A DNA stretch of 64,000 nucleotides from Chondrosia reniformis (Eukaryota > Porifera > Demospongiae > Chondrillida > Chondrillidae). Under the pieces are notes generated by a model. That model worked only from the letters and a program-made list of their open reading frames with translations, did no database searches and was not told the DNA's origin. Shown in pieces: positions 2,346-28,700 of this stretch (position 1 is its first letter; every line of letters starts with the position of its first letter). A program made the translations under genes and the position numbers. The stretch lies in contig OX359191.1 of the NCBI GenBank assembly GCA_947172415.1, positions 6,200,001 through 6,264,000 on the forward strand, written 5' to 3'.

Positions 2346-5300
2346 GTAAATTAGGAACCCGTCTATGAATGTGGACACAGCACTCTTTATATGCAATGTA
2401 GCTGAATGCTGTTATGATAGGATGCTACATATACGTACATATATAACCCTATGTTCAGTTGTGATTGACAACAGCATTATCTACGTATGCTCTAATTTAC
2501 TGTACACTTTGACTATGTTTGTATAATTAATTCAAATATGTACATTAAAAAGGTGGAATCCTTTATTTCTGGTAGCATGCAGAATTGATAGCTACGTACA
2601 TACGTACGTATATATGTAATTTTACCATCATTTGTCTATACCACACAACTAAAATACGTAACACTTACAAAGTCTTTCAATCACTCTAAGAAACATTTTA
2701 GTAAGTTGCAGATCTGTACAACATACATACATAAAGGTTGCATCTATTGTTACAGCAAAACAAACATGGTAGCAGCCAAGTCTGGGTTGATTCCAATCCT
2801 GGTTACATAATTATGTACTACGTATGTGTATAAAATTATCTAAAAATACTATGCAATCAGTATTGGAATCTACTAAAAGTATACTTCAAGGGAATGTCTG
2901 TTAAAAGTGATGATGGTGTTAAACATGTTAGTATTCCCTTTTGAATTCTCTTTCTTCTGTTGCTGTCCTGTCCTTAAATTCACTGTCTGTCTGTTTCTGT
3001 TCCAACCTCCCTTCTAGTGCAGTGACCCTCTGTTTTAGTGTCTCTTTGTCTGCTTCAGACGCTGCCAGCCTCTCCTTGAGGAGGGCACACTCCTCTGAAC
3101 ACTTGTCAAGTTTCACTGCCATGTCACTTAGCTTGTCCATGGCCAGCTCAAGATGTCGCTCCTTGCCGGCCTGCAGGTGATCACCTTGCTTGCTCCTCTC
3201 CATCTTGGTAGTGCATCCTAGCGACTTGTACTTGCAGTTGATCCTCTCCTGATCGCATGTTTTCATATGTGCATTCATCTTGCAACGTGGGATATCCACC
3301 TTACCACAACCATTTGGACAACTCTCTGGAAACCACTGGCAATCCTGGTAATGCGAAGTGACTATATACATGTATTTATCTTGCATGCCACAGTGAGAGC
3401 ACTTTGATGGTCTATAGTCGCAGGTTTTCTCCAAGTGGGCCTTCAAATTTTTACGAATTACTCTCTTCTTACAGTTACGGTTGGAGCATGTCACAATTTC
3501 ATAGTTACAGTCTCTCCAGTGACTCTCTGCTTCTATAAGTGGTCCTCTCCAGGTGCAACCCTTCTCCTCCCGTGAACACATTACCGTGAGGTTTGATATT
3601 ATCCTCTTTGTCCTGGCGTCCTTGGTTGGTGTGTAACTCTTGCGACAGATGGGACACTCTTCATTACCTCCCTCCTCCAGGCACTTGCCACAGAAGAGGT
3701 GTCCACAGCTCGTCTGAACGGGATCATCACTTATTTCCAGACATATAGAGCACTTTAGGTCTTCTAAATAGTGCTTCAATTCGCCTACGATGGAATAGTT
3801 GGTTCCCTTAAAATGGTACTGGAGGATATCTTCCTTTAAAGAAGGCGAAGATTTTATAATCTCACTAGCGCACTTTTGGTTCTGTCTTTCTAATCCTTCT
3901 GCCTTTGTTGGAATGCTGGAATGACTGAAAATACTTGTTTTAGGCTTTACTAAAGGTTGCCTACGTCTCTCAGTTATAACACAGTCATCCTTTGCTAAGG
4001 CAACGTTAACCTTCGTCGACTTCGAAGCCATATTAGTTAATCATGTGATTGCTTAAGCCATTAATCGTATTCATTGCACGTATCATTCGACTCTCTTTGT
4101 ACGTTCCTACGTATATATGTCTACGGGAAATAGTGTTTTAGAGAACGCAGGCCTAGTCTACGTCTGTACATTGTTATAGTAAATAGAATACTAATGAACC
4201 CATAAACTATTAAAACTTAATCCATAAAATCTTAAAATGCTTCTGGAAACAGTGACATATCAAATATCTGACGCTACAAGAATGCGTAGGACTTCATTGA
4301 AACACCTGTATAGAACGATCGCTCTGGTGTACAAAGCAATGAAATGCGGAATGCGTTGCCTGTTACAGCGTCACGAAAAATTCGAACCCCATCCAAAAAC
4401 GGACCCCCACTTTTGGCGGGGGTAGCTTTCTGGCATTACACCGTCTTGGCCAAAAACGGACCCCCTGTAATACCAAAAACGCACCCCCCCTGGGGGAGTG
4501 CGAATTTGCCAGCACAGGTCCTATGCGCAGGTGTAATAATATATGTACCAAGTTGAATGAAAACCATATCCTCATCCAAAGCTCTTTATGCTCTTAACAG
4601 ATAAGCATTACATTTAGGCTATTACGTATATTAGTATGTTTCATAGACGCACAGAATGTCAGCCTTAGGCATACAGGAAAATGGTGTTTTTAGGCTACTG
4701 TGAATTAGTTATGGAAATTCCACAGTACAGTAGATCCTTGCCAATCCAAATCACGTTAATCCAAAACCTCGCAAATCCGAATGACTCACATTTTGGCCTT
4801 ATGCGGACGATTCCAGGTTAAGTACTTGTGATGGCGTCTATAAAGGCCAAGAGAGTGCACAAGACCCTAACTGTTGATCACAAACTGAAGCTGCTCAGAA
4901 AGAAATCCTATACAGTGCTCTGCAACAAAAATTGAGTTTTGATAATTAAGACTATATTTGTATTTGTAACTTTATCTATAGCACATTTTGTGAAACGTTT
5001 ACTGGCGAGGATCCACTGTACTGACAAGCATCCAGTCAGTAAAGGGAATTCGCTTTTAGTGACTTTCCTATTCTTCTCTAGACTACATTTTAGAGATTGG
5101 GACAGTCTACGTACACCTTCATAGTAACATTCACATCTATGGTCTATAATATCTGCTCTATTTCTCTATGTGTACAGTGTATATAGTCCACTCTTATGTG
5201 TGTACAGTATATATAGTCCACTCTTATGTGTGTACAGTATATATAGTCCACTTTCGTGTGTGTATAGTGTATATAGTCCACTTTTATGTGTGTACAGTGT

Positions 5301-12212: not shown

Positions 12213-12492
12213 GTTGAATATCCTATAGTTGCATGTAGTTACTCTTTAAAAATTTCCTGATTGGCCAAAGAAAACAAGTGAGAGATGTTTTGTGGGAAAG
12301 AAGTAAATACATATATGTGCTTCAAACTACAAAATCTAGACAAGGAATGGTATATGAACAAGGATAATGCCTACATAATAATATTGATGTTGGTTATAGA
12401 GTTTTCTGAGTTTTAGGTTTGACGTTTTTAAAATGTGTTTCGTCAAGAGATAAAGAATTGGTAGCTTGGTTACTCTAATGAATTGCTACCCA

Positions 12493-12538
12493 GTGCTACT
12501 GATGAGGAGTGATATTCTCCGAAAAGGCCTTATAGCAC
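12493..12538 (+). ncRNA. Type I hammerhead ribozyme, canonical core
   Basis: All parts of a minimal hammerhead are in order. Stem I is GTGCTA 12493-12498 with TAGCAC 12533-12538. The core is CTGATGA 12499-12505. Stem II is GGAG 12506-12509 with CTCC 12517-12520 around a 7-nt loop, then GAAA 12521-12524. A very short palindromic stem III AAGGCCTT follows (12524-12531) and then A at 12532. Cleavage is predicted after 12532 (UUA site). With stem III so short it may work best as a dimer, as in retrozymes and Penelope-type hammerheads. A Pol III box-A-like TAGCACAGTGG overlaps stem I. Confidence 0.75.
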
Positions 12539-13097
12539 AGTGGTAAACTTGAGTTTTATGACGATTTTTACTAAGGAATGGTATAGCTTTTATTTACATG
12601 TATCGGGTATATATCCATAACGTTTCTAGTTATATAGTAATGAAAATGTAATACAATTATTGTTCATGTGGTTATCATGCCTATATATGAAGCTATGGAA
12701 ACAAAGAGAATAGACTAAAACACAACTTGATACACTAATGACTCAAAGCAAACCTATATATAGAACTTTGGATGAGGATACAGTTAGGCTTCTTTTCTTC
12801 CTTACTCCATTTGTCCAGAATGCTATTCCACCCTTCATCATTGACCCTATGAATGAGTCTTTGTCTTCTTCTTGGCCTTTGTGAATCCTTGGCCCAATAG
12901 AGAAAGGAAGAAAAGCTTGTATCTAACTGTATTCTCATCCAAATCTGTATAGATCTATTCATTAGGCCAATATTGCCCCTCCCCACTGGTATACATTATA
13001 CTTGATGAGTTAAAGTCGTTTCCATTCTAATGTCCCTTCTACATCAAGTCTGCTATCATTATAGGTTACGTCCCACCCTTAGTTTCCAGTCAAACAA

Positions 13098-25700: not shown

Positions 25701-28700
25701 TACTAATTTTCTATTTATACTGACTTGTATTCCCATTCCTCATGTATTGCTGATGAAGACCTCTGGGTCGAAACGTCCAGAATTAGTAAATTCATATTGC
25801 TGACCTTCAATAAGGCTTTATTCTTATCCATGTGTGTACGTTTTCCATGTGTACTACATACAGTAACGAAATTGCTCATAGTAAATGTCTATAAGTATAG
25901 TGAAATACTTTGTTAGCTAATTACGCTCAAGTACAGAAGTTACTAGCAAATATATAAAATATTAAAATTACAATCAAGTACTACACAGTACAAGTTATAA
26001 ATTTAAGAGATCCAGGTGACTATGTAATATTAAAATTACAATCAAGTACTAGCTACACAGTGCCAGTTACAAATTTAAAGAGATCCAAGTGACCCCTGAA
26101 GATAATCAGTATTTTTAAATAGTACGTATAGTTGCAGGCTTTGAAATCCTCAACTACTGCATAGAGAGTAGTAGTTGATACAGATCATCCAATTGCAAGG
26201 TAGAACACATGACCTACCAATTACCTTTTCACACCTTAGTATAGACTGAAGATGATGCATCTGCATGCCATATACCAACAGTCTTAAAGGGGTCTCAGCT
26301 AATAACCACAGCAGATTTGATTTGCCTTGTGAGGAGCTAAGAATACCGACAGTTGGTTGCATGCATTCACATAATCAACAGGGTTAGAGACCATTTTGTA
26401 ACTTGTACACAAAGGACATCATATGGCATACGTATATATAAAGGCCTTGGCCATAATATATGTCGGTTTCACAGTGATCTGACCAATTGATAAGTTTTAT
26501 CAATATAACACTTGGTTTCAATATATAGCTTTTCTATAGTCTTATGGCATTTTATATGTAGATTTTGTCCTCCATTTTCTGTTGCTAGTCCTTTCTTTGA
26601 GCCATATGATATTATATTATTTATATTAGATTATGGTAACTTATTATTTATTTATATTAGATTACCTTAGTATATTGTAACTTGTGTGGTGTGAACTCTT
26701 AGAATTTAGACTGATATGCTTATCTATTATTTATGTATGGTGTTATTATCATCTTAGTATGTTTTAGCATTCATATTTTGTGTGTGCTTGTGGTTATTAA
26801 TCTGTGATGTATCCAGTATGAGTGACTATACATACGGATGCAATCTTTGACAATACTACATGCTGGCAGAAGTGGGATCGACCTGAGCAACAAGAATGGC
26901 CAGCGTTCCCCTGCAATCCCCTGTGAAGTTTAATTTTTGCAACCCTGACGAATGGCCGAAGTGGAGAAAGGCAGCAGCTTCGTGTAGCATCCAGTATGGC
27001 AATTGAAAGCGAGGAGTGACAGAGCAACACCTTGTTATATTGCAGGAAGCAGAAGATGTCCTCACATCTAGAAACAACGACAGAAAAAAGTACGACCAAG
27101 TCTTGGGCAAGATGGACGAGTTCTTCAAAGTTTGAAAGAACATTATTTTCAAGAGAGTGAAATTCAATCGGCGAACGCAACAAGAGTTAGAAACAGCCAA
27201 ATTGTACATCACTAGTATGTACAGCCTGACAACTGACTGTCAATACGGAAACCTGCAAGACGAAATAATTTGCAATCACCCGATCGCCTAGTGGTTGGAA
27301 TCCGCGATAGCTCCTTGTCTGAGCGTCTCCAAATGGACCCCGATCTCACGCTAGAGAAAGCCAAGCAGATTGTCAGGCAGTGTGAAGCCATACGGAAGCA
27401 GCAAACCATCCTCAATGATGGGGAAAAGCTAGCTGAGATGACAGTAAGCTACGTAAAAACAGACAGGAGAAGCAGCAGCTATAGACCCAAAATCAATGTA
27501 GCACAACAGAGGTTTTAGCAGCAGCAGCGCAGCCAGAAGTGTGCCAGATGTGGAAAGGGCCCGCACTCCCGTGGAGCCTGTCCTGTAACTGCCGTAAGTG
27601 CAAGAAGGAAGGACACTACCGCTCCCAGTGCTTCAGCAAAGGGTAGCTAAAGTCACAACACAGCCTGTCAATGACATGGTTTACCTCAATACCATTGGGA
27701 CTGGAAGGCATAAATCATGGGAAGCCATGCACTGTTGGCATCAGCAACCAGGCCATGACCTTCAAGCCAGACATGGGCCGAGGTCACAGCAATCACAGAG
27801 CCAGCCTTCCTTCAATTAAAGGATGTACCCCTACAAGTGCCAACCAGGACCCTCTATGGACCTGATCATCAACCATTAAAAGTCTTTGAAGAGATTATCC
27901 TCACCCTGTCATCAAAGGTGGCAAGTCAGCACCCACATGGTCTTCGTGGTCAAAGACCTCGAACAGAATCTATTAGGCATACCAGCTATTGAGGAACTCA
28001 ACCTCTTGGCTAAGGTCACTGAAGTCAGGTAAGAACCTGATGATCTGGGTGATTTGATCAACCAGTTTCCCACCCTATTCTCAGGCCTCGGGACCCTCAA
28101 TGGAGAGTTCCAAATCCGTCTTGAGCCAGATGCCACACCCTTTGCCCTATACACACCCAGGAACATTCGGAGTCATCACCAGGGTATATGTCCCAACCCC
28201 CTGGTGTGCTGGAATTATTAATGGTTGTCATTCCCAAAAAGAATGGCACGGTCCAGCTTTGTGTTAATTTGAAACCCCTCAACACTGCAGTCATTCGGGA
28301 AACCCACTCTCTCCCCAAAGTTGATGACACCCTTGCTCAGTTGTCAGGTGCGGGGGTATTCAGCAAACTGGATGTCAACAGTGGGTTTTGGCAAATTCCC
28401 ATAGAGGAGCAGTCTCGTCATCTAACGATATTTATCACCCATTCGGCCATTTCTGCTTCAACAAGATGCCCTTTGGCATCTCCAGTGCCCCAGAGTACTT
28501 CCAGCAGAAAATGAACGAGGTACTTGACAACCTACCTGGTGTTCTGTGCCTGATGGACGACATCAATGATCATTGTCTTTAGGAAAGACCAACGGGAACA
28601 CAAGCAACGACTTCTTGCCACACTCCAGTGCCTCCAGACAGCCGGTGTCACCCTAAACCAAGAGAAATGTCAATTTGGCAAGAGCACCCTCAGTTTCCTT

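Follow-up and report, generated by a model that had tools for sequence, protein, structure and literature searches.

A dispersed hammerhead repeat, likely of the retrozyme kind, inserted head-to-head with two fixed ends in the genome of Chondrosia reniformis

Introduction

The non-LTR retrozymes of animals were described by Cervera and de la Pena (2020) as tandem repeats of 170-400 nt, and autonomous Penelope elements were named as strong candidates for moving them, on the grounds that the two share hammerheads, form tandem copies and occur together (PMC7229834). The same paper reports that axolotl hammerheads with a stem III of 1-2 bp cleave weakly on their own but efficiently when built as dimers. 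Penelope insertions consist of head-to-head arms with an optional tail on one arm, a layout for which Arkhipova et al. (2013) favor self-priming on an antisense template (PMC3846280). According to the accessible text of a later study, a Penelope protein initiates at two internal sites of the RNA and extends both target strands, the start site being no different between strands, and insertion in the assay was unchanged by hammerhead mutants (Frangieh et al. 2024, PMC11167929).

Here, we analyze a hammerhead locus in a 64-kb stretch of C. reniformis DNA (the window), together with its copies in the 117-Mb genome. We consider it likely that the feature is a non-coding retroelement of the animal-retrozyme kind, young and non-autonomous, built on an RNA repeat of about 335 nt, each unit of which carries a single type I hammerhead.

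Results

A preliminary description of the window had proposed a canonical type I hammerhead downstream of the gene HPS5. All of the parts that it listed are present at 12493-12538 (Table 1), including CUGANGA, GAAA, three ordered helices, NUH at the cut and an open stem I, and we regard the motif as confirmed to be a genuine hammerhead sequence. In the predicted fold of the window copy, loop II has 7 nt and the outer stem I is bulged. A hammerhead descriptor found a single place on the two strands of the window; in 100 windows resampled from a first-order Markov model, its loose rule gave six matches and its strict rule one. The Rfam check suggested in the preliminary description came out negative: no hammerhead family matched the window at the gathering score, none matched 12300-12750 at E values up to 10, and none matched the copy-bearing loci L010, L089, L090 and L091.

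The term canonical holds for the core, every residue of which is present, but not for stem III, which is very short. The palindrome AAGGCCUU is there as described, but a 4-bp hairpin cannot form from it without a loop; since AAGGCCUU contains the last A of GAAA, an intramolecular stem III would be limited to two A-U pairs capped by a GGCC loop. Such a 2-bp stem within an 8-nt palindrome points to dimeric cleavage, and cleavage of the window hammerhead is predicted to be probably dimeric. Among the predicted monomer folds, the catalytic one has -7.8 kcal/mol versus an optimum of -16.6, and the best predicted dimer fold, at -43.1 kcal/mol versus -16.6 per monomer, is a double hammerhead whose stem III has 8 bp.

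Table 1. Coordinates of the insertion and of its hammerhead in the window
Feature	Position	Strand	Sequence or remark
Flanking direct repeat, left copy	12342-12354	.	AAGGAATGGTATA; target-site duplication
Short inverted arm, 12 nt	12353-12364	-	TATGAACAAGGA; ends at unit 112, 3' end outwards
Direct arm, unit 119-335	12368-12573	+	91% identity to the L018 copy
Possible outer stem I, 5' side	12487-12492	+	UACCCA; predicted pairing
Stem I, 5' strand	12493-12498	+	GUGCUA
Catalytic core	12499-12505	+	CUGAUGA
Stem II, GGAG/CUCC, loop UGAUAUU	12506-12520	+	arms 12506-12509/12517-12520
Core GAAA	12521-12524	+	
Palindrome	12524-12531	+	AAGGCCUU; stem III of 2 bp with GGCC loop (monomer) or 8 bp (dimer)
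A upstream of the predicted cut	12532	+	C in family 2
Stem I, 3' strand	12533-12538	+	UAGCAC
Possible outer stem I, 3' side	12540-12545	+	GUGGUA; predicted pairing
Flanking direct repeat, right copy	12573-12585	.	AAGGAATGGTATA; target-site duplication

The feature extends well beyond the 46 bases originally assigned to it, for the ribozyme sits in an insertion of about 220 bp, at about 12353-12573, which is bordered by a 13-bp direct repeat. Its inverted arm matches the 10-base terminus of the 112 end with 0 mismatches, and the bases TA are common to the arm and the duplication.

A 40-base core, searched with up to three mismatches, occurs at 104 places in the genome (44 forward, 60 reverse) and the reversed-pattern control at none, a recurrence that is a stronger argument for the motif than the descriptor scan. 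By a hand count among the 100 places listed, the base before the predicted cut is A in 70, C in 28, T in one and G in one. A DNA search with 12400-12640 gave at least 47 genome matches (40 of 144 candidates scored), and a search with 30 bases from the 3' end, allowing two mismatches, found 70 places against 0 for its control. The genome search called for in the preliminary description therefore did reveal dispersed copies; most of these are head-to-head, and direct-order pairs of hammerheads, the layout described for retrozymes, were seen at just two loci (spacing, 331 bp in L086 and 341 bp in L088).

Merging of 83 loci gave 65 regions. The L018 copy was used as a 340-base ruler for unit coordinates, and because its first and last five bases are identical, the period is about 335. 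We call unit positions 1-112 B and 113-340 A; the predicted cut falls after 294. The unit of about 335 bp is non-coding, and copies cross the 340/1 and 112/113 borders unbroken, so that the template repeats, with no ORF in between. The feature thus combines the traits by which retrozymes are recognized, namely a non-coding unit in the range of 170-400 nt, a type I hammerhead and many copies. The reading frame with reverse transcriptase and GIY-YIG domains that marks Penelope elements is absent from the 335-bp unit and from the copies examined, and for want of such a frame the repeat is not itself a Penelope element.

A second family, with a unit of 341 bp, is diverged from the first yet still alignable with it, the ribozyme and a piece of B being among the parts most alike in the two. 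The sampled copies with C before the cut (L089, L090 and L091) belong to family 2, as do L087 (G) and L088 (C and T). A hairpin in B is CGCC..GGCG in L086 (family 1) and CACC..GGTG in L088 (family 2), which reads as one compensatory change. Family-1 copies lie about 2% from their majority sequence; across 29 of 30 copies, L035 being omitted, departures from the majority were counted at 24 of 1769 ribozyme sites versus 86 of 3815 flank sites (Fisher p 0.03), which suggests a slight extra conservation of the ribozyme region in this young family. A rod-like, very stable circle was considered and rejected by comparison with 50 mononucleotide shuffles per family: the family-1 circle is no stabler than its shuffles (-66.6 versus a mean of -69.3), and that of family 2 lies 1.6 sd from them (-81.3 versus a mean of -72.6). 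Four pairs of loci, each with the same arms, look like duplicates of a single insertion (L043/L044, L028/L035, L076/L077 and L020/L023); in L020/L023, the sole pair whose flanks were compared, 69 of 70 flank bases are common.

Insertion architecture was analyzed with the four family-2-only loci omitted, the remaining 61 regions yielding 62 clusters, one of which is the family-2 copy in L090. In 44 of the 62, including the window copy, the arms lie head-to-head with a 3' end at either outer border, one at about 112 (accepted range, 100-126) and one at about 340 (320-340); in eight of these, the 112 arm is short and was recognized from its terminal 10 bases, no more than one mismatch being allowed. 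The other clusters show the 340 end alone (10), the 112 end alone (1), 340/135 (2), 340/340 (1) or other ends (4), and 112/112 does not occur. Where both ends could be typed to 112 or 340, they differ in 44 of 45 clusters. Measured from the predicted cut, the ends are 46 and about 153 nt downstream, and an insertion usually has one of each. Arms that start from 340 extend back through an intact cut site, and a cleaved linear monomer was therefore not their template.

An exact flanking repeat of at least 10 nt, mostly of 12-13, borders 29 of the 44 head-to-head insertions, and the remaining 15 have no 10-nt flanking repeat. With random placement within these regions, such a repeat was found in 16 of 1240 cases. 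An earlier, wider repeat search had given 32 of 69 clusters and, at random, 35 of 1340. These target-site duplications exceed 4 bp, as is typical of retrozymes of this kind, and the 29 repeats have an A+T content of 70% versus 61% in the window. The family-2 copy in L090 follows the same plan, with an inverted and a direct arm and the 12-nt flanking repeat TACCCCTAAATT at both borders, 262 bp apart.

The inner ends of the arms were counted in 42 of the 44 insertions, the near-identical neighbors L044 and L077 being omitted. Fourteen of the 42 340 arms stop at 102-122 (112 +- 10), around the start of the other arm (p 2.5e-6 versus an even spread, for an interval chosen post hoc; 13 of 41 if only one of L020 and L023, both counted here, is retained). 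The 112 arms could be measured in 34 cases, the eight short ones found by their 10-base terminus lying outside this measurement; 25 of them stop inside B, 16 at unit 80-96 and 5 at 1-9 (p 0.07), and nine continue into A. In L092, L093 and L094, the inner end coincides with the predicted cut or lies no more than about 4 nt from it, as does, by coordinates alone, that at C9:4354459. Places of the L092-L094 type were chosen because the match began at unit 295, and their inner ends, which would fit templates ended by cleavage, are suggestive only; against this reading, microhomology blurs the ends, L095 ends elsewhere and L096 has a diverged full motif.

The window also contains five Penelope-type cores, CTGATGAAGAC..GAAACGTCC, at 679(-), 699(+), 25750(+), 40452(+) and 47466(-). 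As had been noted, the hammerhead studied here is distinct from all five in having no extra A after CTGATGA. The cores at 25750(+), 40452(+) and 47466(-) read CTGATGAAGACC..GAAACGTCC, and a downstream sequence, AGAATTAGTAAA, is common to those at 25750 and 47466. The cores at 679(-) and 699(+), of the Penelope-type minimal form, are carried by a head-to-head palindrome at 597-781, whose arms (597-681/697-781) are 96% complementary and around which no flanking repeat longer than 5 nt was found. In the genome, at least 38 GIY-YIG matches were found on scoring 150 of 382 candidates; open frames of 549-772 aa hold four of them.

Two further proposals concerned the surroundings of the ribozyme. The idea of a small Pol III element was not supported: the box-A-like TAGCACAGTGG is mostly stem I, and scanning with the Pol III box A and box B consensus gave no box-B match in the unit or in the window copy. 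Family 2 retains stem I but reads TAGCACATTGG, which on inspection no longer fits box A, and a tRNA scan of the window returned 0 hits. A Pol III SINE was rejected for its lack of a box B. Nor could the position downstream of HPS5 be substantiated, as ten neighboring open frames (frames rather than spliced exons) gave no Pfam match; one neighboring frame had no match in the PDB and another had a single unnamed relative. An open frame of 367 aa at 2928-4031(-) has RING and TRAF-type zinc-finger matches.

Discussion

We propose that the units of this repeat are transcribed as multimers and that AAGGCCUU serves to pair two hammerheads, from separate units or molecules, into a double hammerhead, which would cut after A (C in family 2) and release monomers that a cellular ligase may convert into circles. 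A Penelope-like reverse transcriptase/endonuclease would make a staggered cut in the target, and DNA synthesis on the RNA would be primed from both target strands, at unit 340 from one and at 112 from the other; the joining of the two cDNAs would leave a head-to-head insertion within a 12-13-bp target-site duplication. Inverted arms with a tail on one of them are the published layout of Penelope-like insertions, and it is by this analogy that we infer a Penelope-type enzyme. The stops of the 340 arms near 112 fit a model in which two syntheses run into each other on one template; the cluster of stops at 80-96 and the nine arms that reach into A are not predicted by that model. A more general view, which we put forward as tentative and open to real doubt, is that animal retrozymes of this kind are Penelope pLTR-plus-tail units whose reading frame has been lost and whose RNA circle, made by the hammerhead, is copied at once from two fixed sites, one per strand of the staggered cut, to give both arms. 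The clustering of 340-arm inner ends at the start of the 112 arm is in line with a single circle and two start sites, as are the five 112 arms that stop at unit 1-9.

The copies could instead be solo pLTR-plus-tail pieces of an ordinary autonomous Penelope element, to which the hammerhead would belong, rather than a self-contained retrozyme. The order of hammerhead, first start site, tail and second start site is identical, the arms are head-to-head, and Penelope-type pieces and GIY-YIG frames are present in the genome. We nevertheless think this origin unlikely, as upstream of A the copies re-enter B rather than the end of an ORF, with examples that span unit 1-340 (L018), 3-340 (L084), 32-340 (L019) and more than one unit (L086). 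In a tail-plus-B search, none of the at least 49 matches (40 of 105 candidates scored) was shown to be joined to an ORF, and neither a joint frame nor a common flanking repeat was found for L092 and the GIY-YIG frame of 146 aa that lies 2.1 kb from it; an autonomous partner with these ends was found neither in that search nor in the L092 neighborhood. For the same repeat, the head-to-head layout could also have arisen without Penelope priming on both strands, either by self-priming of antisense RNA, which has been proposed for head-to-head Penelope insertions on an antisense template (PMC3846280), or by LINE twin priming, given that the 15-bp duplications of retrozyme-like repeats in Nematostella have been compared with those of LINEs (PMC4918200). 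Two different fixed end positions in 44 of 45 typed cases make such a route quite improbable, the folding back of a single cDNA being no obvious source of them.

Two readings in which the insertion is not a retroelement of this kind have very little in their favor. The independent ribozyme RNA originally envisaged, transcribed by Pol III from a site downstream of a gene, would account for an intact core and for the overlap of TAGCACAGTGG with stem I; a 13-bp flanking repeat, about a hundred dispersed copies and the missing box B make it extremely unlikely, and a lone ribozyme gene was rejected on the flanking repeat and the genome copies. If the insertion were a fold-back DNA transposon (MITE) that carried a hammerhead by chance, inverted arms and flanking repeats would likewise be present, but unequal arms and two end positions led us to reject this reading, and the variable inner cut points and the copies longer than one unit leave it with scarcely any credibility.

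The non-autonomous retrozyme that we favor resembles the LTR retrozymes of plants in being a non-autonomous hammerhead element, and is unlike them in that theirs are type III hammerheads, with LTRs and 4-bp duplications (PMC4918200). It shares with the axolotl HHR_Amex1 and HHR_Amex2 a stem III of 1-2 bp, closed by a tetraloop and, in Amex1, palindromic (PMC7229834), and differs from them in sequence, host and copy layout. As in Penelope-like elements, the arms are head-to-head, one arm has a tail, there is a target-site duplication (PMC3846280), and the hammerhead lies upstream of two RNA start sites (PMC11167929). The duplications are mostly of 12-13 bp here versus the 8-10 bp reported for Penelope-like elements, the segment between the ends is of about 107 nt versus 30-40 nt, and, unlike Penelope-like hammerheads, the one described here closes its stem III with a loop and lacks the extra A after CTGATGA (PMC3846280, PMC11167929).

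The closest likeness in content is to the non-LTR retrozymes of animals, with which the repeat shares a non-coding unit of about 335 bp, a GC content below 50%, a type I hammerhead, longer target-site duplications and coexistence with Penelope-type pieces (PMC7229834). In our search of the accessible open-access literature, no description of a head-to-head layout for retrozymes was found. With regard to the enzyme that moves the retrozymes of animals, the copies in this genome preserve a trace of the insertion step itself, namely two fixed ends, one per arm, together with flanking repeats of 12-13 bp. Animal non-LTR retrozymes have been described as tandem repeats, the word "inverted" being absent from the accessible text of their description (PMC7229834), whereas the C. 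reniformis copies are mostly head-to-head and end at two fixed positions.
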